From an uncultured Flavobacteriales bacterium (GTDB lineage: Bacteria; Bacteroidota; Bacteroidia; Flavobacteriales_E; Vicingaceae), in assembly GCA_905479915.1 (NCBI GenBank), contig CAJQOH010000020.1:62001-126000 (forward strand): a DNA stretch of 64,000 bases, given 5' to 3'. Position numbers and translations under genes: made by a program. Of the stretch, positions 11,756 to 26,377 are shown one piece after another. Positions within the stretch are counted from its first letter, which is position 1, and each line of letters starts with the position of its first letter. Below the pieces are notes generated by a model. It searched no databases. It was given only the letters and a program-made list of their open reading frames with translations, and was not told the DNA's origin.

Positions 11756-12964
11756 TTAAATATAAGAACCCGTGGAAAGGATATGATAAATGTAAATAAA
11801 TCCAGAAAGAACATGTAACCCAAGTACTATGGATAAAATTTTATCTCTTCTTGTAAACTTCTCTTTCTGAAATGCATATCTTAAAAACAGCGTAACACTG
11901 GTCATGAATAAAATATAACTTCCTACTATAGCTTGCCAGCTAAAATTACCATGATACTCTCTTGGTCCTGTTTCTGAAACTAAAATATACCAAAGTAGGC
12001 TTATAATGAAAATAAGAGATGCATAATGAAATACAACACTCTTTTTGATCTCTTTAAAATAGGCCAACACCAATAAAAAAGGAAATAAACAAGAAGCAAA
12101 AAGTGAAAGGTGAATTGTTTTTCCAGTAAAATAATTCCAAATGTGAAATGGAGCAAGTTTTAAACTACCAGAGCTGTATGCATTAGTTGTAGATTCAGAA
12201 TAAATCACTTTTGCTTGGAAAATTAGCAAACCACATCCAACTATTATTGGCAACATTTGTATCCAAAAACTCTTATTCAACTTATTTTTAATTAGAGACA
12301 TCAATGGAAAGGCTGCAACAAAACTTAGAAAGAAACTTGGTTTAATTGCTAAGTTTAAAGCAATTAAAATCGATATAAAAAATAAGTCTTTAATTTCTGT
12401 TTTTGATTTCATCAAGACCTCATACGACTTCCAAAATAAAAGAACCGCAACAGGCATTAAAAATATTGTTGTAGAATTATGCCATACATTTGGAGGAACA
12501 TTACCTAAATACATATTTTTAGGAATAGCGAGTAAGTTATGCGCAAAAATGGATAATCCAGCGCCAACAATTACCAACAGTTCAAGCTTATTCATTTTCA
12601 TAATACTTTCACTGAAAGCATCCTTATTAATAGCAAACATGAATTTTTTTGTGAAATAAAATTTAAATGCAACAGCAAATGCCAAAGCAAATGATGATGA
12701 CAATATTAAAACTCCAGGGTTTTCAGATAAAAATCCTAAAGCTGCTACCACAAAATAATAAAGAAAATTACCAGGAACTCTAGCTCCATCGGCTAACAGG
12801 TTCTTAGTCAAGTTTGCGTGTTGTTGAATATCAGTTTTAACACCAAAAACAAAATTCATTAACAAAAATATGGCTAATGCTATTAAAAATATAATAACAT
12901 TACTTTGTTTCGATATTATCTTTAAAAAATTGATTTCTTTTTCTTCTGACTCTTCTTTTTTCAT
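11756..12964 (-). CDS. Polytopic membrane protein of the glycan operon, unknown function
   Basis: A 402-residue integral membrane protein with about eleven hydrophobic segments and an N-terminal charged tail rich in E and K. After the first helix the outside loop reads VKTDIQQHANLTKNLL, which places an acidic residue and a histidine where GT-C glycosyltransferases carry their first-loop catalytic acid. That is suggestive but not diagnostic. It is the last gene of the minus-strand sugar operon, 37 bases after the WecE-like transaminase gene. It could be a glycosyltransferase that uses a lipid-linked sugar, an O-antigen polymerase or ligase, or a flippase. I cannot choose between these. Confidence 0.55.
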   Translation of the reverse strand: MKKEESEEKEINFLKIISKQSNVIIFLIALAIFLLMNFVFGVKTDIQQHANLTKNLLADGARVPGNFLYYFVVAALGFLSENPGVLILSSSFALAFAVAFKFYFTKKFMFAINKDAFSESIMKMNKLELLVIVGAGLSIFAHNLLAIPKNMYLGNVPPNVWHNSTTIFLMPVAVLLFWKSYEVLMKSKTEIKDLFFISILIALNLAIKPSFFLSFVAAFPLMSLIKNKLNKSFWIQMLPIIVGCGLLIFQAKVIYSESTTNAYSSGSLKLAPFHIWNYFTGKTIHLSLFASCLFPFLLVLAYFKEIKKSVVFHYASLIFIISLLWYILVSETGPREYHGNFSWQAIVGSYILFMTSVTLFLRYAFQKEKFTRRDKILSIVLGLHVLSGFIYIYHILSTGSYI

Positions 12965-13001
12965 ACAATAGAATTATAGTAATACTGGTTTAATTATTCA
13001 A

Positions 13002-14156
13002 TTACTGGGCTTTAGAAAAATATTCTAAAACTTTACTTGATATATAATCTATATCTTCAGTTGATAAATTATAATAAAGTGGCATTCTAACAAGTAGATT
13101 TTCAAACCTATCAACATTAATCAACTCTCGCCCATCGTGTTTATTTTCATAAAATGGACTACTATGCAGGCCAATATAATGAAATACAGCCATAATATCT
13201 TCAGACTTCAAATAACTTATAAGCCCTCTTCTTTCTTCTTCCGAATTACATATTAAATAGAAATTATGCGCATTGTTTGTTGCATAATCTGGAATGTTAG
13301 GGCAAAAAACATTATTTGTCTCTTCTAGTACTTTTAAATTTTTAAAGTACTGATCCAAATTCTTTTTTCTTTTTAATTGTATTTCTTCAATATGTTCTAA
13401 TTGAGCAAACAAAAATGCAGCAGTCAATTCAGATGGTAAAAAAGACGAACCAATATCTACCCAATTATATTTTGCTACTTCTCCTCTAAAAAATGCAGAA
13501 CGATTGGTTCCTTTTTCCCAGATAATTTCAGATCGCTCATACATTGTTGGGTCATTAACTCCTAAAAGCCCTCCTTCTCCACTAATAATATTTTTAGTCT
13601 CATGAAAAGAGAAAGTTGATAGATGTCCTATTGAACCTAATGGTTTTCCTTTATAATAAGAATCAATTGCCTGAGCAGCATCTTCAATTAAATATAAATT
13701 ATGTTTATCTGTTAATTCTTTAATAGTATCCATTTCACAAGCAATACCGCCATAATGAACAACTACAATTGCTTTAGTCTTTTCTGTAATTAAAGCTTCT
13801 AGCTTTGTCTCATCTATATTAGGATGATCTGGCTTTGAATCGGCAAAGACAATTTTAGCACCTCTCAATGCAAAAGCATTTGCTGTACTTACAAAAGTAT
13901 AGGAAGGCATAATAATTTCATCTCCTTCTTTCACATCAATTAATAAAGCACACATCTCTAAAGCATGGGTACATGAAGAGGTCAATAAAGCCTTACCTAA
14001 TTTATGTTTTTTGACAAAATATGAATGACACTTTTTAGTAAATTCACCATTCCCTGCTAATTGACCTTTTGATATTGCTTCTTGAATATACTCAAGTTCA
14101 TCACCTATAATAAAAGGTTTATTAAAAGGATATTTTAGTTTTTTCATACTTGTCAT
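13002..14156 (-). CDS. wecE: WecE-like dTDP-4-amino-4,6-dideoxyhexose transaminase
   Basis: A PLP-dependent DegT/DnrJ/EryC1 enzyme that places an amino group at C4 of a dTDP-4-keto-6-deoxy sugar. The whole length resembles E. coli WecE/RffA: PFNKPFIIGDELEYIQEA, IMPSYTFVSTANAFALRGA, EDAAQAIDSYYKG, SFHETKN with the PLP lysine at residue 188, KGTNRSAFFRG and AVFHYIGLHSSPFYE. I start it at 14156 because that ATG overlaps the stop of the upstream acetyltransferase as ATGA; an earlier ATG at 14165 and a later one at 14147 are possible. With the neighbouring 2,3-dehydratase and 3-ketoreductase its real substrate may lack the 2-hydroxyl. Confidence 0.88.
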   Translation of the reverse strand: MTSMKKLKYPFNKPFIIGDELEYIQEAISKGQLAGNGEFTKKCHSYFVKKHKLGKALLTSSCTHALEMCALLIDVKEGDEIIMPSYTFVSTANAFALRGAKIVFADSKPDHPNIDETKLEALITEKTKAIVVVHYGGIACEMDTIKELTDKHNLYLIEDAAQAIDSYYKGKPLGSIGHLSTFSFHETKNIISGEGGLLGVNDPTMYERSEIIWEKGTNRSAFFRGEVAKYNWVDIGSSFLPSELTAAFLFAQLEHIEEIQLKRKKNLDQYFKNLKVLEETNNVFCPNIPDYATNNAHNFYLICNSEEERRGLISYLKSEDIMAVFHYIGLHSSPFYENKHDGRELINVDRFENLLVRMPLYYNLSTEDIDYISSKVLEYFSKAQ

Positions 14157-14818
14157 TTTAACCAATAGTGATATATATATTCCTTTTTATAAATAGAGTA
14201 TCCATTTTTTGAATAATAATTTATTGCGTCAATATTCTCTTGTTGAGTAACTACTCGAATAAATTGTTTTCCATTTTCTTTAGTCAGTTCAAACGCTTTA
14301 TTCATTAATTGAGAACCTACTCCCTTACCTTGAGTATCTTCTCTAACCGCTACAAGTCCAATTTGCGAATAAGTATTGTGCATTTTCAAAGTCATAAAAC
14401 CTAAAACATTTTCTTCTTCCATTACAACTAAAACAAAGTCAGCTACAATTCCTTCTACAGATTTTAGAATCCACCTAGTATATAGCTCTTCAAATTTAAG
14501 ATTCAGTTTTGAATCTTTTTTAAATCTCGAAGAACCTCCACTTAAAATTGCCAATCGTATTAAATCTTCAGTCAAATCTCCTTCCCAAAGACTTACATTC
14601 TCACTTAAATAAAGCCCTTCTGGATCAATTTCTTTTTCAAACTCTATCTTTTCATCAATACAGTTTAAATTATCTATTGGATTTTTTGAAAAAAGGTAAA
14701 CTAGATCATAACCAGCTGTTGAATCAAAGTTTTCGAAATCCGCTGTAGATTCCAAAATTGATTTCCCAATGTTTAAATCGAAGAAATCAGAATCCCATGT
14801 TAATTTTTCAATTATCAT
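14153..14818 (-). CDS. WecD-like GNAT sugar N-acetyltransferase
   Basis: A 221-residue GNAT-fold protein. The C-terminal domain has the acetyl-CoA motif VREDTQGKGVGSQLMNKAF and then NGKQFIRVVTQQENIDAINYYSKNGY. The N-terminus (LTWDSDFFDLNIGKS) is the element that opens WecD/RffC-type acetyltransferases, which N-acetylate dTDP-4-amino-4,6-dideoxygalactose made by WecE. The transaminase gene follows with an ATGA overlap, as expected for successive steps. Inferred product: a dTDP-4-acetamido sugar. Confidence 0.75.
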   Translation of the reverse strand: MIIEKLTWDSDFFDLNIGKSILESTADFENFDSTAGYDLVYLFSKNPIDNLNCIDEKIEFEKEIDPEGLYLSENVSLWEGDLTEDLIRLAILSGGSSRFKKDSKLNLKFEELYTRWILKSVEGIVADFVLVVMEEENVLGFMTLKMHNTYSQIGLVAVREDTQGKGVGSQLMNKAFELTKENGKQFIRVVTQQENIDAINYYSKNGYSIYKKEYIYHYWLK

Positions 14819-15740
14819 GATTAATCATTTTCTCTACAACATAAACAGGCCTAGATTTTCCCTGATCATATATCTTCCCAATATACAATCCCATTACACC
14901 TAAAACTGTAATAATTATTCCTGATAAAAACCAAATAGAAAGCATGATACTAGCATATCCTTCAACGATTATTTGCCCCATTAAATACCTTGCAAACAAA
15001 ACTATTCCGGCAACCACACTCAACAAAGATATAACTGCTCCCAAACCTGTAACTAATCGCAACGGTCTATCAGAAAATGATATCAAAGTGTTAAGGGCTA
15101 AACTTAAAAGCGTTGAAAACTTATAAGTCGTTTCTCCAGAATGTCTGGCACTATGTTCAACTTCTATATTCGTTTTTTTAAACCCAATCCAATTTATCAT
15201 TGCAGGGAAATACTTTTTGTAATCATTCATTGTTAAAATTGAATCAATTACTTTCTTATGATAAATTCCAAAATTTCCAACTTTATGGTTTTGTTCCATT
15301 CCTGTTAAAAACCCTAACACCATATAAAATAGTTTAGAACTCATCTTCTTTCTCCAAGTATCATTTCTTTGATTGCGCTCTGCCAAAACAATATCATACC
15401 CTTCTTTAGCTTTATCAAAAAGATTAATGATCTCTTTAGGATTGTCTTGTAAATCACAATCCATTACAACTATCCAATCTCCTTTTGCATTACACAAGCC
15501 TCCATAAATAGCACTGTGTTGTCCAAAATTTCTACTTAATTTAATCCCTTTTACTTTTGCATTTTTTTCGCACTCTCTAATTATAGCTTCCCAGGTATTA
15601 TCAGGACTGTAATCTTCAACTAAAATTAGTTCATAGTCAATTTCATTAAGCTCTTGCATAGCAACAACAAGCTGTCTAACCAACTCTTCTACGATGAGTT
15701 CTGAACGATAAACAGGTATAACTACGCTTAGTAATTTCAT
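14808..15740 (-). CDS. GT2 glycosyltransferase, polyprenyl-phosphate hexosyltransferase type
   Basis: A GT-A catalytic domain (LSVVIPVYRSELIVEELV; VMDCDLQDNP with the DxD-type acids near residues 95-97) is followed by two C-terminal transmembrane helices (about 230-255 and 265-290) and the tail MGLYIGKIYDQGKSRPVYVV. This is the layout of ArnC, GtrB and DPM1-like enzymes that transfer a sugar from a nucleotide donor to undecaprenyl phosphate. The start at 15740 gives a one-base TAATG overlap with the preceding TPR gene; the ATG at 15749 is an alternative. A close paralogue lies three genes away at 18808-19737. Confidence 0.85.
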   Translation of the reverse strand: MKLLSVVIPVYRSELIVEELVRQLVVAMQELNEIDYELILVEDYSPDNTWEAIIRECEKNAKVKGIKLSRNFGQHSAIYGGLCNAKGDWIVVMDCDLQDNPKEIINLFDKAKEGYDIVLAERNQRNDTWRKKMSSKLFYMVLGFLTGMEQNHKVGNFGIYHKKVIDSILTMNDYKKYFPAMINWIGFKKTNIEVEHSARHSGETTYKFSTLLSLALNTLISFSDRPLRLVTGLGAVISLLSVVAGIVLFARYLMGQIIVEGYASIMLSIWFLSGIIITVLGVMGLYIGKIYDQGKSRPVYVVEKMINHDN

Positions 15741-17932
15741 TATTGACAATATTGTTTAATCTGTTCTTCAGAAGCAGAATGACCTAATGATTTAGCTTTA
15801 TTAAAACTAACACAAGCATTAGCCTTATCATTTTTACCTATTTGAGCTAATCCTATATTGTGATACGATTGTGCAAATTCGCTGTTAAATTTCAAAACAG
15901 CATTGTAATATTGAATAGCTTGATCAAAATTCTTTAACCCGTAGTAAATATTACCTAAATAGAAATAAGCATTCGCATTTTGACTATTCAATTTCACATA
16001 AGCATTCATATCTTTTAATGCTTCATTGAATTTAGAATAATTAGTATATAATGCTCCCCTATTAAATAATGCATCTTTATAATTCGGATTTATATTTAGA
16101 CATAAAGAATAATTTTGAAGTGCTAAATTAGGATCTCCTATATTTTGATAAGCTAATCCCAAATAGTAATACGCACTATGGCTATTTGGATTTTTTGATA
16201 ACGATTGCTTAAACAAATCAATTGATTCTTGATACTTCTTTTCATTCACTAATTCAACTCCTTTTTCATAAATAGGGTCACTATCGTTTGTTTTATAAAA
16301 AATAGCAACTCTCACTCTATTATCCTTAGACTGGAAGGTATTAACAGGTCTAAATTCATTAGGCCTATCTGTAAAATAACTTTCCTTCAACCTTTTCCCT
16401 TCTTCTTTTGCTCGGTAAGAATAATGGGAATCCCAAAAAATTATACTTCCTTTTGGAATGTGTTTAACTGATTCTTCAGTAAGGTATCCTGCTTTTGGAT
16501 TAAAATTAGTTCTAGATCTCTCTTGATAAAAAGCAAATAATTCATGTGAATAATATACAGGGCTTTTTTCATTAAATACTCCATCTTTAGATTTACATAC
16601 CCTAACATAATAATCAGCTATTCTCTTCATCGTCCTATCTTCTTCAGTCATCTTAAATTTCTTAAAACTAGTAGTCATAGAAAATAAAGCAATAAGTGAA
16701 AACATAAGAACCTTTGTATTTACCTTAGTAGGTATATACAAGGCTAAAACTGCTGCTAGAGAAACCAATAAAGGGATATAATTCTCTTCATCTAACAGAA
16801 CAACCCAATTATGAGTTTTACTCATATATAGGCCTACCAAGATCAAATATGGAATAATAAACACTAACATCCATTTCTTATTCTCTTTACTTAAATCGCT
16901 AAACCTATCCAACCCTAAAACTGCTATGATTGCTAAAAATGGTGCATTTATTAAAAGTTGTCTTGTATTTACTGGGATCCCTTTAGAAAACCAGGTAGCA
17001 TCTCCTATAGCATAATAGGCATATAAACTTAATAAAGGAACCAATATAAAATAGTGTAACTTCTTTTTTTGCAAGAATGATGCTCCACAATAAACAATAA
17101 ACAATAAAGGTGTTATTGCACCAAATAAAACAGTTGTTAAAGAAGGTATTCTTTGTAAACCTCGTTGTTGCAAATAGGCTCCACTAATTTTACTCGCATA
17201 TCCAAATAAATAATCGAATAAAAACAAGAGATTTCCAGAAGTAGCATACCCCCAAACATAAAGAACAAGAGCAAAAGTTCCTGTTAACAATGCTGCAAAA
17301 AATTCTTTTTTAAATAATAAATACCAAAAATAAAGACCTGTTATAAGAAACGCTTCTTGTCTTACAAACGAGGCATAAGAGACAAGTAATGCAGCAAATA
17401 AAAACTTACCTTTTTGGTGGTAAAACAATGCTAAAACAAGCATAAACACACAGGAAAACTCAGCATAATTCCTAAATGAAAGCTGAAACCAAATTGGAGT
17501 TAACCCTAAAAAGAACACAGCCAAAATAGCATATTTACTATTATACCCTTTTAAAATTTTGTAAGAAAAATAAACAGATAAGGCACACATTATGCAATTT
17601 ATAAATGTTACAAATTTCAACCCCAACAATACGGGTAAAACATAAATTAGCTTATAACCAGGTTTACTCCAATTGGAAAGAATGCCATTAGGTTCATTCC
17701 AAAAATCTTGCATACTAAGAAAATGACTTATTTCATCATGTTGATAAACTCCTTTTGAGAAAAAAGAATACACAAAATATATCAATCCCAATAAACCAAC
17801 AAGTAAAATTATCGCGACATCTTTTTTTGGCTTATCATTAATCAAAGCACTATCAATGTCGGTTCTCTCCTCTTCCAATGATTTTGTATGTTTCTTCTTT
17901 TTTACCATTACTAAGCTATCTTTTCTACCCAT
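15740..17932 (-). CDS. Membrane GT-C-like protein fused to C-terminal TPRs
   Basis: 730 residues in two parts. After a lysine-rich cytoplasmic start, about residues 40-425 form ten or more transmembrane helices. The first outside loop carries GVYQHDEISHF, an acidic pair in the position of GT-C catalytic residues, and a later loop has FVRQEAFL. A soluble segment follows, and from about 555 to the end at least five TPR units (for example AYYYLGLAYQNIGDPNLALQNY and AYFYLGNIYYGLKNFDQAIQYY). Polyprenyl-phosphate-sugar-dependent glycosyltransferases with TPRs (TMTC-like) share this layout. The start at 17908 would avoid overlap with the upstream stop at 17911; the ATG at 17932 gives a 22-base overlap. 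Likely uses the lipid-linked sugar made by the flanking GT2 enzymes, but the acceptor is unknown. Confidence 0.7.
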   Translation of the reverse strand: MGRKDSLVMVKKKKHTKSLEEERTDIDSALINDKPKKDVAIILLVGLLGLIYFVYSFFSKGVYQHDEISHFLSMQDFWNEPNGILSNWSKPGYKLIYVLPVLLGLKFVTFINCIMCALSVYFSYKILKGYNSKYAILAVFFLGLTPIWFQLSFRNYAEFSCVFMLVLALFYHQKGKFLFAALLVSYASFVRQEAFLITGLYFWYLLFKKEFFAALLTGTFALVLYVWGYATSGNLLFLFDYLFGYASKISGAYLQQRGLQRIPSLTTVLFGAITPLLFIVYCGASFLQKKKLHYFILVPLLSLYAYYAIGDATWFSKGIPVNTRQLLINAPFLAIIAVLGLDRFSDLSKENKKWMLVFIIPYLILVGLYMSKTHNWVVLLDEENYIPLLVSLAAVLALYIPTKVNTKVLMFSLIALFSMTTSFKKFKMTEEDRTMKRIADYYVRVCKSKDGVFNEKSPVYYSHELFAFYQERSRTNFNPKAGYLTEESVKHIPKGSIIFWDSHYSYRAKEEGKRLKESYFTDRPNEFRPVNTFQSKDNRVRVAIFYKTNDSDPIYEKGVELVNEKKYQESIDLFKQSLSKNPNSHSAYYYLGLAYQNIGDPNLALQNYSLCLNINPNYKDALFNRGALYTNYSKFNEALKDMNAYVKLNSQNANAYFYLGNIYYGLKNFDQAIQYYNAVLKFNSEFAQSYHNIGLAQIGKNDKANACVSFNKAKSLGHSASEEQIKQYCQ

Positions 17933-18801
17933 TTCTTAAAGCTATAATCATAGCTTAGATCTATTTTCTTTTGCAATTTATTATCGTCAAAAATAGTATC
18001 GCCCGATTCAATTTTTAATTGTTCAGGCGGCCAGTCAATAAAATCTACTTTAACAGAGTATTTATGTGCGACTAAATTAGCAATTTCTAATAAACTTAAT
18101 GCATCGTTACTACCAATATTATAAACATCATTTAGAGTTGAATCTATATTAATACTCTTTAATATTGTTTTAACAATATCGCTTATGTGAGTAAATGTTC
18201 GATTCAAATTTCCATCTCCATAAATAGTAATATTCTCTCCTTTAACAGCTCTATTTATAAAGAAACCTATTGTTCCATAAGAGTATACCTGATCAAGTAA
18301 ATTACCATAAGGAACACAAATTCTAAAAATAGTGTAATCAACATTAGATGCTCGTAACATTTTTTCGCAAGCTAACTTATTCTTAGCATAAATTGTTTTG
18401 GATTCTTTTTCTGCACCTTCTATCAACGGAGTATTCTTAACACCTTTATAAACCAATCTTGTTGATGGAAAAATAACCCTCAATCTATCAACTCCTTCAC
18501 AACACTCAATTATATTTGATAGTCCGAGTTCATTGACTTTTGTAAACTTTTCTATTTCCTCTTTAGAATTTCCTGTACCAGTTAAGCCAGCAAAAGCAAA
18601 CACATAATCAACGTTAAAATCTAATTGTTGTAACTTTTCTTTATCTGTTATATCAATCTGAATATAATTAGGGTAATTATCTTTAGATAATGGAGCCAGT
18701 CCAACAGGAACAAACTCAATATTTTGTTCTTTCAAGAAATAAGCAATATGCCTACCTAAGTAACCATTAGCTCCAAATACAATTGCTGTTTTCATAGCCA
18801 A
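17911..18801 (-). CDS. NAD-dependent epimerase/dehydratase (extended SDR)
   Basis: A 296-residue sugar-nucleotide SDR. The Rossmann motif GANGYLG is at the N-terminus, followed by the catalytic YAKNK (Y-X3-K) near residue 137 and downstream segments IYGDGNLNRTFTHISDIV and YNIGSNDALSLLEIA typical of sugar-nucleotide epimerases and reductases. In place of the usual catalytic Ser/Thr, PSTRLVYKG provides the TRL-VY context. Overlaps the GT-C/TPR gene and is 6 bases after the GT2 gene. Candidate roles are 4-keto reduction, C4 epimerisation or supply of a second sugar; the substrate cannot be read from sequence. Confidence 0.8.
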   Translation of the reverse strand: MAMKTAIVFGANGYLGRHIAYFLKEQNIEFVPVGLAPLSKDNYPNYIQIDITDKEKLQQLDFNVDYVFAFAGLTGTGNSKEEIEKFTKVNELGLSNIIECCEGVDRLRVIFPSTRLVYKGVKNTPLIEGAEKESKTIYAKNKLACEKMLRASNVDYTIFRICVPYGNLLDQVYSYGTIGFFINRAVKGENITIYGDGNLNRTFTHISDIVKTILKSINIDSTLNDVYNIGSNDALSLLEIANLVAHKYSVKVDFIDWPPEQLKIESGDTIFDDNKLQKKIDLSYDYSFKKWVEKIA

Positions 18802-18807
18802 AATGAA

Positions 18808-19737
18808 CTAATTTATTGTCTTATGTACGATATAGGTTGGCCGTTGCTTTACATTTTCAAATGTTCTACCCACATACAATCCCACCACACCCAATACAGA
18901 AATAATTATTCCTGAAAAAAAGCTAATTAAAAGTGCTAAACTTGCCCAACCCTCGGCAACTACATCACTAAAAATATACAACACAACCATTATCACTGCT
19001 ACACAGATAGATAAAAAAGAAAGTAACACTCCGAACTTTACAGTTAAACGCAAAGGCTTATCAGAAAAAGTTAAAATTGTATCCATAGCTAAACGTAACC
19101 GTTTCCCAAAAGAATAAGAAGAACTTCCATCTTCTCTCTCAGCATGTTCAATATCAACTTTTGCATAATTAAAACCAACCAATTGCTGCAGCATAGGGTA
19201 ATACCTATTATGATCTTTAACCATCGCCATTGATTCTACTGCTTTTCTCTGATAACAAACAAAATTAGCTACTGAACTATCTTGTTTTGTTTCTGTTAAA
19301 TAACTTAGAGTAGCATAAAATATGCTGGATAAAAATTTCTTAAAAAAATCGTCTTGTCTATTTTTTCTACTTGCAACCACAATTTCAAAGCCTTCTTTAG
19401 ATTTTGATAAAAGCTTTTCAATTTCTTCAGGCTGATCCTGTAAATCACAATCCATTGTAATAACATACTGACCGCTACTCACATCTAGACCGGCCTGTAT
19501 AGCATGTTGCTGACCGTAATTCCTACTTAATTTAACACCTTTAATCTTTGAGTTTTTTACACAATTTTCTTGAATTACTTCCCAAGAATTATCAGGGCCG
19601 CAATCCTCAACTAAAATAATTTCGTAATTATCCGTTATTTTAGAGACTGCACCAACAATCCGTTCTACCAAATTATTGATAATTGTTTCCGCTTTATAAA
19701 CAGGACTTACTATTGATATTTCTACTTGTTGATTCAC
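18808..19737 (-). CDS. GT2 glycosyltransferase, polyprenyl-phosphate type (paralogue)
   Basis: Same design as the GT2 at 14808-15740: SIVSPVYKAETIINNLVERI, ITMDCDLQDQPEEIEKLL with the metal-binding acids, then two C-terminal helices (ILYIFSDVVAEGWASLALLI and SGIIISVLGVVGLYVG) and a basic tail. Shared phrases (LSRNYGQQHAI versus LSRNFGQHSAI, SDKPLRL versus SDRPLRL) show the two are paralogues. Having both in one operon suggests two lipid-linked sugars, or a heteromeric enzyme. Starts with an ATGA overlap with the methyltransferase gene. Confidence 0.85.
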   Translation of the reverse strand: MNQQVEISIVSPVYKAETIINNLVERIVGAVSKITDNYEIILVEDCGPDNSWEVIQENCVKNSKIKGVKLSRNYGQQHAIQAGLDVSSGQYVITMDCDLQDQPEEIEKLLSKSKEGFEIVVASRKNRQDDFFKKFLSSIFYATLSYLTETKQDSSVANFVCYQRKAVESMAMVKDHNRYYPMLQQLVGFNYAKVDIEHAEREDGSSSYSFGKRLRLAMDTILTFSDKPLRLTVKFGVLLSFLSICVAVIMVVLYIFSDVVAEGWASLALLISFFSGIIISVLGVVGLYVGRTFENVKQRPTYIVHKTIN

Positions 19738-20438
19738 TTTATGGCTCTAATATAATATTGCGCTCCTAATGGGCACCAAGTTAACATTTTTTCCAAACCA
19801 AGAAATATTTTAAATAACTTATAACGAGGAAAAAACAACGTATAATTAAGGCTTTCTGTTTTTAATCCACTCTGATTGGTTATTTTTTTATTGTAAGATG
19901 GTTTTAATAAAACAGCATCTTTATCAAACTCACACTCTCTTACAACTTTTCGTGTTAGAGGGATATTAGGGTTATGCTCAAAATTATAAAATCGCCCCCC
20001 CTTCTTTAAAACACGTTTAATTTCATTTAAAATTCCTTCGTGCAATTTATGTTCTATGTGATGAAACACCATTGAAGTAAATACTACATCAAAGTGATTG
20101 TCTTCAAAAGGCAATATTGTACCATCATAAGCTTTAAAAAAAGCATTACTTATCTTTTTATTTTTAGCTATATCTACACTTGCTTCAGACACATCAGTTC
20201 CCGATATATTTGCATTAGCAAAATGTTTCCGAATATAAACTGAGCTATTTCCATCGCCACAGCCAAAATCTAAAATATTCAACGATTTGTTCGCATCTTC
20301 ATACTTTAAAATCTCAACAATTTTGTATTCACTAAAGTAATCACTATCGGCACCACTAATTTTAATTACTTTATCGTGTGTTTCACGATAATCAACAGCA
20401 TGTTCATCAAAATTATCAAATTGCCTTTCTTCACTCAT
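19734..20438 (-). CDS. Class I SAM-dependent methyltransferase
   Basis: A 234-residue protein with the SAM-binding motif I LDFGCGDGNSSVYI, motif II region DVSEASVDIAK, and FDVVFTSMVFHHIEHKLHEGIL, the post-motif of UbiE/methyltransf_11 proteins. No transmembrane segment; a hydrophobic patch FFPRYKLFKIFLGLEKML sits near the C-terminus. Sandwiched between the 3-ketoreductase and GT2 genes, so a sugar or glycan O- or N-methylation is the natural inference. Substrate unknown. Confidence 0.8.
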   Translation of the reverse strand: MSEERQFDNFDEHAVDYRETHDKVIKISGADSDYFSEYKIVEILKYEDANKSLNILDFGCGDGNSSVYIRKHFANANISGTDVSEASVDIAKNKKISNAFFKAYDGTILPFEDNHFDVVFTSMVFHHIEHKLHEGILNEIKRVLKKGGRFYNFEHNPNIPLTRKVVRECEFDKDAVLLKPSYNKKITNQSGLKTESLNYTLFFPRYKLFKIFLGLEKMLTWCPLGAQYYIRAIK

Positions 20439-20445
20439 AGCTAAC

Positions 20446-21405
20446 TTAACTTGCTTTATCTTTTAACTCTTGTAACAACCTACTTTGGTTTAAAATTTCC
20501 GAATATTTAGGTTCAAAATCATTTTCAAGCACACAACGCTTAAATTCATTTAGAATATTTACAAAGTGATTTTCAGCTTCAATTTCATAATTAATAGTAT
20601 CTCCTTGCTGCTCTAAAGTAATTACAGGTTTAAACTCTGCCCCTGGAGTAAATGATCTTGGAACAATTATTTTTCCTTTACTACCCCAGATTTCATAATT
20701 GCACTGGTAAAAATTATCAAAACCAAAAGCTACTTCAGCAAACATTCCATTTGGTGACTTTAAATAAGCTCCTCCAAATAAATCTACATCAGTATTCATC
20801 GTATTAAGTGTAGCAGCTTCAACCTTAATATCATCACCCAAAAAAAGTTGAGAGGCTCTTACAGTATATGCAGCAGCATCTAAAAGAGCTCCACCACCCA
20901 ATTCTTTATTGTACCTGAAATTATTCTGATCCAAAGGAGGGAAACCAAAGGAACTCCTAAAACATCTCAACTCTCCTATTTCACCTTGCTTTATTAAACC
21001 TTTTACAAAATCATGTTGATGATGATACAGGAACATAAAGTTCTCCATAATCAACAATCCTTTTTCTTTAGCTAAAGAAACCATTTTAATGGCAGATTGA
21101 TAATTCATCGCCAATGATTTTTCAACATGTATATGCTTTCCTGCTTCCAAAGCCTTTGCAACCCACTCTTCATGAAGTCCAGTAGGTAAAGGCATATAAA
21201 CAACATCTATATCATTTCTATCTAATAAGTTCTGATAGCCTTCAATAGCTTCGCAATCAAACTCTAAAGCAAATTGCTCTGCTTTTACTTTTGTTCTACT
21301 CGCTATTGCTACCAACTCAAAATCAGCAATACTTTTTATTGCAGGTATTACAGAACGTCTTGCAATATTCGCACAGCCTAATACTCCTATTCTTAATTTA
21401 CTCAT
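20446..21405 (-). CDS. Gfo/Idh/MocA oxidoreductase, probable NDP-sugar 3-ketoreductase
   Basis: 319 residues with an N-terminal Rossmann domain (RIGVLGCANIARRSVIPAI), VYMPLPTGLHEEW, HVEKSLAMN with the EK-type lysine, and the stretch MENFMFLYHHQHDFV. That last element plus FGFPPLDQNNFRY and GGGALLDAAAYTVRA closely recalls KijD10, which reduces C3 of a dTDP-3,4-diketo-2,6-dideoxy sugar. The adjacent gene encodes an EvaA-like 2,3-dehydratase, the enzyme that makes exactly that substrate, and the two genes abut (21405/21406). So the NAD(P)H-dependent 3-ketoreductase role is well supported by both sequence and context. Confidence 0.82.
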   Translation of the reverse strand: MSKLRIGVLGCANIARRSVIPAIKSIADFELVAIASRTKVKAEQFALEFDCEAIEGYQNLLDRNDIDVVYMPLPTGLHEEWVAKALEAGKHIHVEKSLAMNYQSAIKMVSLAKEKGLLIMENFMFLYHHQHDFVKGLIKQGEIGELRCFRSSFGFPPLDQNNFRYNKELGGGALLDAAAYTVRASQLFLGDDIKVEAATLNTMNTDVDLFGGAYLKSPNGMFAEVAFGFDNFYQCNYEIWGSKGKIIVPRSFTPGAEFKPVITLEQQGDTINYEIEAENHFVNILNEFKRCVLENDFEPKYSEILNQSRLLQELKDKAS

Positions 21406-22824
21406 TTAAACAAACTTTACAGCAGACAATAAACTTCTTGACTGGATATTTAAGTAATTATTAAACTTTATAAATGTCTTAATCTGATTTAATGTCATCC
21501 AAATATACTTATCAGGTACATTCACATCAAAATCATCACCCACTTCAATAATCATGTTTTTATTTTGTTCTTCAAAAAACCGTCCGCCTTCTTCTGATTG
21601 AAATGCGGTATAATGAACTTTTGCATTTTTCGATTCTGGATCTAAAATATAATCCAAAAACGCTACCTCATATTCATTCTTACCTTTACGAAAGTTACCT
21701 GTTAAACACTGTACTGTTGGCGCTAACTCAATAATATCGAAATTTCCACTTTCTAATTTTGCTTGCACTAAAAAATGTAAAACCCCATTAATTTTCTTTA
21801 CTAAAAATGCTATAATTCCTTCTTGGGCAGACTTAACTAAAGGCTGAGTCCAGCTATGCACTTCTCTATTCCCTATTTCTGCTCGTACTGCTATTACAGA
21901 AAAATATTTGAAAGCTTCATGATATATTTTTTCATCGTCTTTTTTCCAATTCGATATCGTATTTAATGGTATTTTTTCAACTTCCAATTCAGCAAAAGCC
22001 TTATGCTTAGTAATCCAAGAAATAATCCCTTCAATACTGTTTAGAGCATTATCCGTATCTAATTCAGATAGCAGTAATGCCTTTTCATGTGCTGATTGAT
22101 TTAATTCACCTATTCTTTTGATCATTTCCAAATCACCAAAAGGAATACCAGAAATAACGGTTCGGGTATCCATATTAATCACATTATCTAACGTTAACAG
22201 CTGCTTAATCTGACCTAATGTTAACCAACAAAAATCCTCTTTCACTTCTATATCTGAAGAAACTTCAATAATAATATTTCTATTTCTTTTCTTTAAAAAA
22301 CGTGCTCCTTGCTCAGATTGTAATTGATCTAACAACACACTCACATCGGCTCTATCTTCTAAGAAATATTCTAAATAATTTGGAGGAGTTCCTTTATGAA
22401 CTTGTGTATAATTACTTTTAGTTGCCTGTAATGTTGGAGATAATTGTACCGCATTAATATTGCCAGGTTCAATTTTAGCTTGCATTAAAAAATACAATAC
22501 TCCATCTATATTCTTAGTTATAATCCCTAAAAAACCAACTTCTGGCTGGTTTATTATTGGCTGAGACCACTCTGAAACAGTCCCCCAATTCGTCTCAACT
22601 TTAATTCCTTCAATTGAAAAGAATTTACCTGAATCGTGAACTAAATTTCCTGTTTCATTATTGAACGACCAATTGCTCATTTCTGAGAATTTAATTGGTG
22701 TTATTTTATGTTGGACATTGGATTTTTTTTCTCCTAGCCACTGCATAAACTTGTCGGTAGAAAGAAATGGATTCTCTAGCGTTAACGCTGATTTCAAAAA
22801 GTTATATTCTGTTATTTGATCCAC
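21406..22824 (-). CDS. EvaA-like NDP-hexose 2,3-dehydratase
   Basis: 472 residues built of two tandem copies of about 230 aa. Each half has a W..QP..N/K motif followed by KxxxGxLxFLxQAKxExGN and an AELAPTxQ-type segment: FLMQAKIEPGNINAVQLSPTLQ in the first and FLVQAKLESGNFDIIELAPTVQ in the second, then RFLKKRNRNIIIEV and RFFEEQNKNMIIEV. This internal duplication defines the NDP-hexose 2,3-dehydratase family (EvaA, TylX3), which removes the C2 hydroxyl from dTDP-4-keto-6-deoxyglucose. First gene of the sugar operon proper, 4 bases after the SpoIIE phosphatase gene. Confidence 0.85.
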   Translation of the reverse strand: MDQITEYNFLKSALTLENPFLSTDKFMQWLGEKKSNVQHKITPIKFSEMSNWSFNNETGNLVHDSGKFFSIEGIKVETNWGTVSEWSQPIINQPEVGFLGIITKNIDGVLYFLMQAKIEPGNINAVQLSPTLQATKSNYTQVHKGTPPNYLEYFLEDRADVSVLLDQLQSEQGARFLKKRNRNIIIEVSSDIEVKEDFCWLTLGQIKQLLTLDNVINMDTRTVISGIPFGDLEMIKRIGELNQSAHEKALLLSELDTDNALNSIEGIISWITKHKAFAELEVEKIPLNTISNWKKDDEKIYHEAFKYFSVIAVRAEIGNREVHSWTQPLVKSAQEGIIAFLVKKINGVLHFLVQAKLESGNFDIIELAPTVQCLTGNFRKGKNEYEVAFLDYILDPESKNAKVHYTAFQSEEGGRFFEEQNKNMIIEVGDDFDVNVPDKYIWMTLNQIKTFIKFNNYLNIQSRSLLSAVKFV

Positions 22825-22828
22825 CTTC

Positions 22829-24964
22829 TTAACTAATTTTCACTCCTAAGATACAGATATCATCTAGCTGTTCAATATCTCCTTTCCAATCCAAAAGGGT
22901 TTTATCTAAGAAATTCATTTGCTTATCCATTTCCTTATCTTGAACAGTAAGTAATAATTGTTTAAATTTCTTATACATGAATTTTTTCCCTTTAACTCCT
23001 CCAAACTGATCAGCATAACCATCTGTAAACAAATAAATAGCATCTTCTCTTTTCAATTCAACTGCTTGTGTTTCATAATTAATTTTATTCTTATCTCCTC
23101 CTATTGCCATTTTATCAGCTTTAAACTCATAAAACTTAATTGAATCCTCGTCAAAAAGAACTTCTTTATTGTCTATTAAATCTTCTGACTTCCTTAATAG
23201 ATACAAGGAGTTATTGGCTCCAGAGTAAGTCAGCCTATTTGATGTTTTATCAATACAACAAATTGAGATATCCATCCCATCTCTAATATTCATGTTATCA
23301 GTTTTGGATTTACCTCCAATTGCTTCAACTACCAATTCATTTAGTTTATCTAAGATTTTTCCTGTATCCGTAATTTTAAAATCTTCTACTATCCTATTTA
23401 AAGAATTGTACCCTATCATACTCATAAAAGCTCCAGGAACACCATGCCCTGTGCAATCTACAACAGAGAAATAAATTTTATCACCAACCTCTTTTATCCA
23501 ATAAAAATCACCCGAAACAATGTCTTTTGGTTGAAAATAAATAAATGATTTAAAGTGTTTTTGCAACAAACCATCATCTGGTAATGTTGCTTGCTGAATT
23601 CTTTCAGCATAATTTATACTATCGGTAATGTCTCTGTTTTTCTCCTCAATAATTTTGTTTTGATCATTAAGAAGGGCATTTGTTTTTTTCTTCTGACTTA
23701 AATTGTAAAAAACATATACAATCATAAGTAAAGCTATTACCAGGCCTATAACAAGAAAGTTTTGTTGTAAATTTTTCTTATCAATCTCTACGTTTCTTAA
23801 TTCCTTTTCGGTATTCAACAAATCTATTTCTTGCTGTTTTTTCTCAGTATTATAAATCCCTTCTAATTCCGCAATTTTCTCTTGACTAGATTTACTTGCT
23901 AAAGAATCCTTCATTGCTGAAAATAACTTATGGTACTTTAGGGCTGTTTTATAATCCTTTCGTATTTCATTTTTATCAGCTAATAAATTATAAAACTCCT
24001 TTTTGAGATCAAAAGCATTTATTTCTTCAGCTATTTCTAATCCTTCTTGATAGTATTGATTTGCTTTTGTAAAATCTCCTAATTCAAAAAAGATATCTGC
24101 ATAATTACTTAACGATATTGAATAAGTTCTTTTATCGCCAAGCTCTTTCCTAATATCTAAAGCTCTCTTAGTAGCTTTTAATGAATTAGGCAAGTCTCTT
24201 AACTCTAAATAACATACCCCAACATTATTTAAAGACCATGCTATTTCTGAAGGATTTTCATATTTTTCTGCAATAGCTAATGACTTTTTAAAGCAGTTTA
24301 AAGCTTCAAAATATCTTTCTTGCGCTATATATATCTGTCCGAGATTATTTTGACAATATTGAGAATAAGGTTCATTCTTCGTTATTTCACAGAGATTCAA
24401 TGCTTCCTTAAAATATTGAATAGACTTGTCTAATTTATCAGTAGCACCATAAACTGCGCCAATTGTAAGGTAGGAAACTATTATTCCTGTAGTATCTTTT
24501 AAGCTTTCATCAGCCTTTAGAGACTGAAAGTAAAGTTTAGTAGCTTGATCATATTCTCCTTCATCGTAAAAGATGTTTCCTAAATTACTTGAAAATTGAC
24601 CGATATAATTAGGCATGTCGAGTTCAACACTTTCATCTAAACCTGCTTGCAAATATTTTTTTGCCAATTTAAAATCATATAAAGCTTTATATGATAATCC
24701 AATAACATTAATCACCTTAAACTTATCCTCTACCATTTTGGGGTTAGAGTTAATCAGTTTTAGCGTTTGTAAACCGTAGTCTATTGCTTTTTTAGGATCC
24801 TCAGATTTATAAAACGCTGTAATCTCAGCGTAAGCTTTTACCTTTAAAGAATCAATCTCAACAGTATTAGAATACGAAATAAGGCTGTCAACATTCGTTG
24901 CAGCCTTATTAATGTTTGCTAAAAAGCAATAGCTTAATAATAATATGAGGTAATACTTATTCAA
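22829..24964 (-). CDS. TPR - transmembrane - SpoIIE-type serine phosphatase
   Basis: 711 residues. A signal-like hydrophobic start (1-21) is followed by about seven TPR units (about 75-345, for example IGQFSSNLGNIFYDEGEYDQATKLY) facing the periplasm, a coiled coil, and a transmembrane helix (FLVIGLVIALLMIVYVFYNL, near 405). The cytoplasmic PP2C/SpoIIE domain has GDFYWIKEV, VDCTGHGVPGAFMSMI, RDGMDISICCID and YLFTDGYADQFGG, so metal-binding aspartates are present. Such proteins dephosphorylate anti-sigma antagonists or similar regulators after sensing outside signals. It is co-directional with and 4 bases before the sugar operon and 3 bases after the mutase gene, so it may govern them. Confidence 0.85.
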   Translation of the reverse strand: MNKYYLILLLSYCFLANINKAATNVDSLISYSNTVEIDSLKVKAYAEITAFYKSEDPKKAIDYGLQTLKLINSNPKMVEDKFKVINVIGLSYKALYDFKLAKKYLQAGLDESVELDMPNYIGQFSSNLGNIFYDEGEYDQATKLYFQSLKADESLKDTTGIIVSYLTIGAVYGATDKLDKSIQYFKEALNLCEITKNEPYSQYCQNNLGQIYIAQERYFEALNCFKKSLAIAEKYENPSEIAWSLNNVGVCYLELRDLPNSLKATKRALDIRKELGDKRTYSISLSNYADIFFELGDFTKANQYYQEGLEIAEEINAFDLKKEFYNLLADKNEIRKDYKTALKYHKLFSAMKDSLASKSSQEKIAELEGIYNTEKKQQEIDLLNTEKELRNVEIDKKNLQQNFLVIGLVIALLMIVYVFYNLSQKKKTNALLNDQNKIIEEKNRDITDSINYAERIQQATLPDDGLLQKHFKSFIYFQPKDIVSGDFYWIKEVGDKIYFSVVDCTGHGVPGAFMSMIGYNSLNRIVEDFKITDTGKILDKLNELVVEAIGGKSKTDNMNIRDGMDISICCIDKTSNRLTYSGANNSLYLLRKSEDLIDNKEVLFDEDSIKFYEFKADKMAIGGDKNKINYETQAVELKREDAIYLFTDGYADQFGGVKGKKFMYKKFKQLLLTVQDKEMDKQMNFLDKTLLDWKGDIEQLDDICILGVKIS

Positions 24965-24967
24965 TTT

Positions 24968-26377
24968 TTAATTCTTAAACGCTGCGTGTACTTTTTCTAA
25001 AATTTTAAATGCTCCTTCAGTAGTAGATGATTCTGCATAGGTTCTTAAAACAGGTTCTGTACCTGAAGCTCTAATCATTACCCACTCATCATTATCAAAG
25101 AAGTATTTATACCCATCTACACTTTCAACTCTTTTTACTTCCAGATCTCCAAAAGATTTATAACCATCGTTTTCACATTTAGCAACTATCGCTAATTTAT
25201 CTTCTTCTTTCAGGTGCATATCAATACGTTCAAATTTAAATGAACCTACAATATCATAAATCCCCTCAATTAATTCCTCTAAAGTCTTACCAGATTTAAC
25301 CATATATTCCCATATAATTAACCCCATCCAAATACCATCTCTCTCTGGAATATGTCCTTTCGTTGCAATACCTCCAGATTCTTCTCCGCCTAACAAAACA
25401 TCGTCAGTTAACATGATTCCTGCAATATATTTGAATCCAATCTTGGTTACTTGATACTCCAATCCATAATGATCACACATCTTTTTTACTTTTGGAGTAA
25501 CAGAAAATGCATTTACCACTTTACCTGAATATTTCTTTTCTTCAACCAAATACTTAATCAATAGCAATATAATGTGATGTGAATCAACAAAATTTCCTTC
25601 ACTATCATACAATCCAATTCTATCGGCATCACCATCTGTAGCTAAACCACAATTTATTTGACCTTCAGACATTTTAATCAACTCCGAAAACTCTCCTAAA
25701 TTTCTATGTATAGGTTCTGGAGCAACACCATTAAATCCTGGGTTATGATCACAGTGTAAGAAGTCTATGTTTGGCAACAACCTTCTCATTACATCTTGTC
25801 CAGATCCAAACATTGCATCATAAGCAAAATTCATATCTGAATTACGAATGGCTTCCATATCAAAATTTGCTTCAACATGATCAACATACATTGTTTCTAA
25901 ATCAATATTCTCAACCAAACCTTTAGCAACTAATTCTTCCATATCAATTGAATCTAAATCAACCGAGTTGTTATCTGGAATTAAATCTTCTACTTCTTGT
26001 ATTTCTTTTGGTAATAGAGGTCCTCCAAAATGACCTTTTAATTTATATCCATTGTATGTTGGAGGATTATGAGATGCTGTTAAAACGATTCCTAAAGATG
26101 CTTTTTGATTTAAAGTACCTAATGAAACCATTGGTGTAGAAACTGGTCCTTTTGCCAAATAAACTTTTACACCTGCACTAGCAAAAACCTTTGTTGTTGT
26201 TGTTGCAAACAACTCTCCTGCATACCTACAATCATGACCAACAACTACTGAGGGGTTCTCGAAATTTTGCTTTAACCACTCTACTGTTCCTAATGTTACC
26301 CTTGCAACATTATCTACTGTAAAATCTTTAGCTATTATAGCTCTCCAACCGTCTGTTCCGAATTTTATCTTTGTCAT
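24968..26377 (-). CDS. Phosphoglucomutase / phosphomannomutase family protein
   Basis: An alpha-D-phosphohexomutase that interconverts hexose 1- and 6-phosphates, the entry to nucleotide sugars. The phosphoserine loop LTASHNPPTYNG has Ser102. The metal loop ATDGDADRIGLYD lies near 245, the sugar-binding loop GGEESGGI near 325, and the phosphate-binding RASGTEPVLRTYAES near the end. At 469 aa it belongs to the short archaeal/bacterial PMM/PGM group. It heads the gene series leading into the SpoIIE phosphatase and sugar operon. Whether it works on glucose, mannose or glucosamine phosphate is not resolvable here. Confidence 0.9.
   Translation of the reverse strand: MTKIKFGTDGWRAIIAKDFTVDNVARVTLGTVEWLKQNFENPSVVVGHDCRYAGELFATTTTKVFASAGVKVYLAKGPVSTPMVSLGTLNQKASLGIVLTASHNPPTYNGYKLKGHFGGPLLPKEIQEVEDLIPDNNSVDLDSIDMEELVAKGLVENIDLETMYVDHVEANFDMEAIRNSDMNFAYDAMFGSGQDVMRRLLPNIDFLHCDHNPGFNGVAPEPIHRNLGEFSELIKMSEGQINCGLATDGDADRIGLYDSEGNFVDSHHIILLLIKYLVEEKKYSGKVVNAFSVTPKVKKMCDHYGLEYQVTKIGFKYIAGIMLTDDVLLGGEESGGIATKGHIPERDGIWMGLIIWEYMVKSGKTLEELIEGIYDIVGSFKFERIDMHLKEEDKLAIVAKCENDGYKSFGDLEVKRVESVDGYKYFFDNDEWVMIRASGTEPVLRTYAESSTTEGAFKILEKVHAAFKN

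Follow-up and report, generated by a model that had tools for sequence, protein, structure and literature searches.

The window analysed here, a stretch of 64,000 nucleotides from an uncultured Flavobacteriales bacterium, carries a tightly packed operon of sugar and membrane genes, with spacings between genes of -22 to +37 bp. All operon genes lie on the minus strand, and the plus strand of the region is interrupted by many stops. The initial annotation had singled out four genes, for EvaA, KijD10, WecE and WecD enzymes, as one tight operon making one sugar; the close packing was confirmed and all four open reading frames exist at the coordinates given, each of them on the minus strand. Its list left out an SDR, two GT2 enzymes, a methyltransferase and two membrane proteins, and the interpretation changes once these are included. 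Upstream lies a predicted phosphohexomutase gene of the PGM/PMM type (24968-26377), whose counterparts in loci L011-L019 share 82-89% identity and adjoin the gene of EvaA or that of a PP2C phosphatase. The gene is syntenic with EvaA in most relatives of the genus, and its product may supply Glc-1-P to RmlA. The next gene encodes a TPR and PP2C/SpoIIE-like phosphatase (22829-24964), an operon companion that occupies a different slot in relatives and is therefore probably not a pathway enzyme.

The protein encoded at 21406-22824 (472 aa) contains two copies of PF03559 in one chain (507 bits over two stretches), and its sole relative in a PDB search was EvaA, the dTDP-4-keto-6-deoxyglucose 2,3-dehydratase (4j7g, E=4e-112). 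The catalytic residues of EvaA, Glu139 and Glu190 (PMC8987622), align with Glu119 and Glu171 of the protein at the locus. Judged from its sequence, this product is an EvaA-type dehydratase in which the catalytic residues are kept. The adjacent gene (20446-21405) encodes a KijD10-type NAD(P)-dependent sugar 3-ketoreductase of the Gfo/Idh/MocA type. Its top PDB match was KijD10 (3rbv, E=7e-77), with the next family at 1e-31, which places the protein close to the 3-ketoreductases, as had been proposed; the distant placement that was to refute the proposal did not arise. The lysine and tyrosine altered in the deposited KijD10 mutants 3rcb and 3rc7 are retained as Lys96 and Tyr180. The genes rmlA and rmlB, which the initial annotation had noted as absent from the window, were located elsewhere in the genome, rmlA at G000:C25:101196-102047 (472 bits, cut-off 361) and rmlB at G000:C28:83422-84414 (478 bits, cut-off 365); therefore, the substrate can be made. 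Both this substrate supply and the predicted chemistry, in which EvaA and KijD10 would work from dTDP-4-keto-6-deoxyglucose, are supported.

The gene combination had been called unusual. The pairing of EvaA with KijD10 is not peculiar to this operon, since both were present in 63 of the 74 EvaA loci retrieved, although EvaA itself is rare, found in 3 of 393 genomes of a phylum-wide sample. Within the genus, EvaA is present in 14/14 genomes. Because both enzymes are best known from antibiotic clusters (PMC8987622), the operon could be read as a specialised-metabolite pathway. This reading is highly improbable: no PKS or NRPS genes were found among the open reading frames read around the operon, the surrounding genes (bamD, coaBC, recN and PGM) are housekeeping genes, the operon encodes a GtrB-type GT2 together with membrane proteins and it is fixed in all 14 genus genomes. 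The envelope setting assumed earlier is thus supported.

The genes that follow are a class I SAM methyltransferase gene (19734-20438; Pfam Methyltransf_11), whose orthologues in the genus occupy the identical slot with 66-81% identity and whose product is likely a sugar O-methyltransferase, and the gene of GT2a (18808-19737), a polyprenyl-phosphate glycosyltransferase of the GtrB/ArnC type with two TM helices. GT2a matches GtrB (5ekp, 7e-54) and ArnC (9hwj, 5e-51) over its full length, and in the tree it falls in a clade that holds EvaA-locus GT2s only. Beyond the SDR gene, the operon encodes a putative GT-C glycosyltransferase with a C-terminal TPR domain (15740-17932). This protein has 8 or more TM helices and an invariant Asp-Glu in its first loop; its membrane part had no match in Pfam, and a fold search with its model was swamped by matches to the TPR domain. 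Its same-slot equivalents lack the TPR domain and are only 33-36% identical, a divergence that, with the gain of the TPR domain, suggests that its donor may have changed.

The extended SDR (17911-18801) has the Epimerase fold, with an invariant YxxxK motif and invariant nucleotide-binding glycines. Its structural model (pLDDT 88) matched C4 epimerases and reductases at a TM-score of ~0.83, the nearest folds being C4 epimerases and not a characterised 2,6-dideoxy 4-ketoreductase. Fold was uninformative as a guide to the reaction, as epimerases, reductases and dehydratases all matched alike. Across 46 genomes of the family, the SDR occurs in 18 of the 22 with EvaA and in 0 of the 24 without it (p=2.6e-9), and WecE in 7/22 and 9/24, respectively (p=0.76), p-values that are overstated because the genomes are related. 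The four genomes with EvaA only are assemblies of ~250 or more contigs, and in one of them (G028) the contig with EvaA ends short of the SDR slot. Both genes are retained even on separate contigs in five g6 genomes and in G044. This confinement to EvaA genomes makes the SDR the best candidate for the C4-ketoreductase of the EvaA/KijD10 core, which should then yield a dTDP-2,6-dideoxyhexose.

Comparison with relatives divides the operon in two. Syntenic relatives have the order PGM-EvaA-KijD10-methyltransferase-GT2a-SDR-GT-C-bamD, and WecE and WecD are missing from the locus. In L012, L013, L014, L016 and L018, the order from EvaA onwards, interrupted in places by the PP2C gene between GT2a and SDR, leads to the GT-C gene directly before bamD, rpoZ and coaBC; the gene order of L135 matches this type. 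The segment from EvaA to GT-C is thus the ancestral core, fixed in the genus. Four additional genes between GT-C and bamD were seen in the window only. The first encodes GT2b (14808-15749), a second GtrB/ArnC-type polyprenyl-phosphate glycosyltransferase (5ekp, 5e-62) that, like GT2a, has a C-terminal TM pair and a full-length match to this type, and that lies outside the clade of EvaA-locus GT2s with moderate support (86/84). The second encodes a GNAT N-acetyltransferase (14153-14818) that falls below the equivalog cut-offs (NF008212, 96.7 against 219 bits; TIGR02382, 61 against 195) and matches 2fs5 weakly in PDB (4e-8); it is therefore WecD-like only, not a proven WecD. This is the one identity proposed earlier that needed weakening, those of EvaA, KijD10 and WecE being upheld by profile or PDB matches. 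WecE (13002-14165, with an ATG at 14156), the dTDP-4-keto-6-deoxyglucose 4-transaminase that forms dTDP-Fuc4N, scored 517 bits with TIGR02379 (cut-off 435), matched 4piw at 6e-123 and contains the HETKN lysine motif. The last gene (11756-12964) encodes an orphan membrane protein of 402 aa with ~9 TM helices in a TM scan, without a Pfam or NCBIfam match or a homologue in 45 family genomes, which is a candidate GT-C or exporter of the cassette.

The initial annotation had placed EvaA, KijD10, WecE and WecD in series towards a dTDP-4-acetamido-2,4,6-trideoxyhexose, which would leave the SDR to another use such as epimerisation. The four genes do share one tightly packed operon, DegT is often found next to EvaA and KijD10 at other loci (28 of them) and a WecE-like DegT occurs in L080 (Pelosinus, 336 bits) and L079 (276 bits). 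However, relatives whose EvaA is 81-87% identical have no WecE or WecD at the locus, WecE is distributed independently of EvaA and the WecE of the window is nested in the tree among proteins unlinked to EvaA. Among 59 EvaA loci, the SDR was beside EvaA in 13 and DegT in 28, and none elsewhere combined the two. Moreover, two undecaprenyl-phosphate (Und-P) glycosyltransferases would be needless for one sugar; their presence in one operon fits two. Synteny, co-occurrence and phylogeny thus led to the rejection of the four genes as one pathway, and the single combined sugar is unlikely at this locus. The additional genes also travel on their own. GT2b, WecD and WecE genes are adjacent in L118 and L126, and WecE and GT2b genes in L122, away from EvaA or in its absence; in the same genus, G028 has a GT2b-WecD-WecE group followed by a 602-aa membrane protein, with EvaA on a different contig. 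Among EvaA-less genomes, GT2b, WecD and WecE are grouped in G030 and WecE adjoins GT2b in G001. Base composition gave no mark of recent insertion, the GC content of the cassette genes (29-33%) being the same as that of the rest. Most likely, these genes were acquired separately, as a cassette that serves a second sugar of an ordinary kind, Fuc4NAc, and WecE, the WecD-like protein and GT2b probably make Und-P-Fuc4NAc.

The explanation that we favour, with a probability of roughly 0.7, is that two modules draw on one precursor, dTDP-4-keto-6-deoxyglucose from RmlA and RmlB. In the first, EvaA would dehydrate at C2/C3, the KijD10-like enzyme would reduce C3 and the SDR would reduce C4, giving a dTDP-2,6-dideoxyhexose of the digitoxose, olivose or oliose type, probably of D configuration because a 3,5-epimerase is absent from the operon. 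The methyltransferase may O-methylate this sugar, GT2a would load it onto undecaprenyl phosphate and, on the periplasmic side, the putative GT-C would hand it on to a glycan or glycoprotein. In the second module, WecE would aminate the precursor at C4, the WecD-like GNAT would acetylate it to dTDP-Fuc4NAc and GT2b would form Und-P-Fuc4NAc, with the 402-aa membrane protein as transferase or exporter. The 4-keto-2,6-dideoxy intermediate might also be put to both uses, with the SDR leading to the 2,6-dideoxyhexose and the recruited WecE/WecD to its 4-acetamido analogue. The insertion of the cassette inside this operon, not elsewhere, and the divergence of the putative GT-C speak for this, and WecE could still use that intermediate in this one genome; it is nevertheless a typical WecE above its curated cut-off with its normal substrate available, and this reading is given slightly less weight than the serial one.

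Under the two-module explanation, the core most likely makes a rare 2,6-dideoxy sugar for the cell envelope of this Vicingaceae-like bacterium. The wider proposal stands a little above even odds: an envelope pathway, fixed in the genus, whose antibiotic-type enzymes make a 2,6-dideoxyhexose that a GtrB-type enzyme places on Und-P, for addition in the periplasm to a surface glycan or glycoprotein, and next to which a plug-in Fuc4NAc cassette was acquired. Dehydratases of the 2,3 type have been described almost only from antibiotic clusters, and here one is fixed in an envelope operon of a Bacteroidota genus. A literature search found neither EvaA in non-antibiotic settings nor a description of an undecaprenyl-phosphate-linked 2,6-dideoxyhexose donor made by antibiotic-type enzymes. 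The four proteins EvaA, KijD10-like, SDR and GtrB-like GT2 provide a signature for envelope 2,6-dideoxy sugars, which makes the origin of digitoxose in bacteria such as Tannerella forsythia testable. The locus is also a caution that the sugar genes of one operon need not form a single pathway; here, relatives separate two.

The core resembles the antibiotic dTDP-2,6-dideoxyhexose pathways (EvaA; KijD10 of kijanimicin; TylX3, OleV, UrdS and SpnO) in combining a 2,3-dehydratase with a Gfo/Idh 3-ketoreductase, but differs in its envelope-glycan setting, in having a polyprenyl-phosphate GT2 in place of the aglycone glycosyltransferase and in its proposed 4-ketoreductase, an SDR distant from any characterised enzyme. 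The S-layer protein O-glycan of T. forsythia has been proven to contain digitoxose, which is a 2,6-dideoxyhexose, and sugars of this class are therefore known in Bacteroidota envelopes; the feature shared with the locus, where the sugar is predicted from genes, is a Bacteroidota envelope with a 2,6-dideoxyhexose. The available parts of the two sources describe the core-sugar genes as elsewhere on that genome, and the digitoxose genes were not found in those parts (PMC4030854, PMC6120980). Gtr-type three-component periplasmic glycosylation combines GtrB, a flippase and a GT-C (PMC4728340, PMC11127046). The locus likewise encodes a GtrB/ArnC-like GT2 together with a putative GT-C, but the donor would be a dTDP-dideoxy sugar and no GtrA flippase was identified. 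With the dTDP-Fuc4NAc branch of the enterobacterial common antigen (ECA), the cassette shares a WecE above cut-off and an adjacent WecD-like GNAT; it differs in having an Und-P glycosyltransferase instead of WecF, and no other ECA genes were seen in the window operon. Finally, the EvaA-KijD10-DegT loci of gut Bacteroides and Prevotella, some with a NeuD/PglD acetyltransferase (for example, L041 and L063), have the first two enzymes in common with the core, but at C4 they use an aminotransferase of the DesI/perosamine type, without the SDR. The acetamido sugar that had been proposed for the window fits these gut loci better.

The four genes from which the initial annotation had built a pathway to a dTDP-4-acetamido-2,4,6-trideoxyhexose do exist on the minus strand of this AT-rich Bacteroidota contig. 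The sole PDB relative of the EvaA protein (21406-22824) is EvaA itself (4j7g, 4e-112), and both catalytic glutamates described for that enzyme (PMC8987622) are conserved. The proposed KijD10-like character of the Gfo/Idh protein (20446-21405) was borne out by a PDB search, where KijD10 was clearly nearest (7e-77); the Lys and Tyr changed in deposited KijD10 mutants are kept. The transaminase (13002-14165) exceeds the curated cut-off for WecE. The WecD assignment (14153-14818) stood only in part: the protein is a GNAT that matches the TDP-fucosamine acetyltransferase 2fs5 along its length, but it falls under the curated cut-off (97 of 219 bits). Since the 3.57-Mb genome carries genes for RmlA and RmlB at other sites, dTDP-4-keto-6-deoxyglucose should be available in the cell. 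Genes resembling those for RfbF/RfbG, RmlC and SAM methyltransferases occur at a separate locus in the first 6 kb of contig C3 of the same genome (L002/L010), which suggests that one more sugar, CDP-linked and either deoxy or branched, is made.

Interspersed with these genes, and omitted at first, are two GtrB/ArnC-type glycosyltransferases (GT2a, 18808-19737; GT2b, 14808-15749), an extended SDR (17911-18801), a methyltransferase (19734-20438) and a TPR-containing polytopic membrane protein (putative GT-C, 15740-17932); another polytopic protein (mem402, 11756-12964) comes after WecE. A scan of 84,980 genomes yielded 74 EvaA loci, the nearest of which (L011-L019 and L048, Flavobacteriales/Vicingaceae, EvaA identity 71-87%) show, as far as their contigs extend, the order PGM-(PP2C)-EvaA-KijD10-MT-GT2a-(PP2C)-SDR-GTC-bamD, some being without one or other bracketed or flanking gene. 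GTC directly adjoins bamD in L012, L013, L014, L016 and L018, with an opposite-strand ORF between SDR and GTC in L012. Exactly this junction, empty in the relatives, holds GT2b-WecD-WecE-mem402 in the window. Therefore, the transaminase and acetyltransferase are an insertion into an older operon that was already complete without either, and their assignment to the EvaA/KijD10 pathway is unlikely.

Other genes vary as well. A TPR and PP2C/SpoIIE-like phosphatase gene (window 22829-24964; L016 14044-16386; L018 7277-9724; L020) lies within the operon of many relatives, ahead of EvaA or in the GT2a/SDR gap, sometimes in two copies. In the window, the putative GT-C bears an acquired C-terminal TPR domain that 6/6 positional equivalents lack, and with 33-36% identity to these it has diverged far more than adjoining genes (about 70-88%). 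In L012 (13095-13928) and L083 (12349-13176), the KijD10/GT2a interval encodes an additional or alternative methyltransferase whose N-terminus is rich in cysteine, suggesting that methylation is variable.

For 59 EvaA loci, 5 kb or more of downstream sequence was available; in these, EvaA was accompanied by the SDR in 13, a DegT aminotransferase in 28, neither in 18 and both in none, as expected if each locus has one C4 enzyme, for SDR reduction or DegT amination. The window is the sole locus carrying an SDR together with a DegT-type enzyme, a pairing due to the cassette insertion. The 4-acetamido-2,4,6-trideoxyhexose is thus a fair prediction not for the window operon but for the EvaA-KijD10-DegT loci of gut Bacteroides/Prevotella, whose aminotransferase resembles DesI and perosamine-type enzymes; a NeuD/PglD-type acetyltransferase is present in L041 and a PglD-like domain in L063. 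Loci of this arrangement (L041, L043-L047 and L049-L063, gut Bacteroides/Prevotella and others) are candidates for genuine 4-amino- or 4-acetamido-2,4,6-trideoxyhexose in gut commensals. The pathway as originally drawn is best sought in a Pelosinus MAG (L080), where EvaA-KijD10 precedes a true WecE-like transaminase (12347-13492) and a GT2.

Co-occurrence was analysed in 46 family genomes, whose kinship makes the p-values guides only. EvaA was present in 22 (14/14 in the window's genus), and the SDR in 18 of these 22 vs 0/24 EvaA-less genomes (p=2.6e-9). The four exceptions are fragmented assemblies; in one, G028, the EvaA contig stops short of the SDR slot (L133). In G044 and five g6 genomes, the SDR and EvaA are on different contigs, so the link exceeds mere neighbourhood. 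WecE (at least 55% identity) occurred in 7/22 genomes with EvaA vs 9/24 without (p=0.76). The cassette also exists apart: in G028, a member of the window's genus, contig C22 encodes GT2b-WecD-WecE with a membrane protein of 602 aa (L118), and EvaA is on C149; in genomes without EvaA, GT2b, WecD and WecE are grouped (G030) or WecE-GT2b are paired (G001). In trees, the window WecE nests within WecE proteins from EvaA-less loci, and GT2b falls outside a clade composed only of EvaA-locus GT2s (support 86/84).

On the favoured reading, EvaA, the KijD10-like enzyme and the SDR would produce a dTDP-2,6-dideoxyhexose, with the activity and stereochemistry of the SDR predicted; its structure model (pLDDT 88) resembles C4-acting SDRs generally. 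The methyltransferase may methylate this sugar. WecE, the WecD-like protein and GT2b would turn the same precursor, dTDP-4-keto-6-deoxyglucose, into Und-P-Fuc4NAc. PF03559 is sparse in the phylum (3/393 sampled genomes), yet fixed in the window's genus, and a search of open-access papers turned up none that places an EvaA-type enzyme in an envelope operon. A 2,6-dideoxy sugar, digitoxose, is known from one Bacteroidota envelope glycan, that of Tannerella forsythia (PMC4030854), and the core-sugar genes of this glycan are said to sit elsewhere on the genome (PMC6120980). GT2a would transfer the 2,6-dideoxyhexose onto undecaprenyl phosphate, and the putative GT-C, for which a fold search was uninformative, would then use the lipid-linked sugar in the periplasm on a presumed acceptor, a scheme that can be likened to Gtr-type systems (PMC4728340, PMC11127046).
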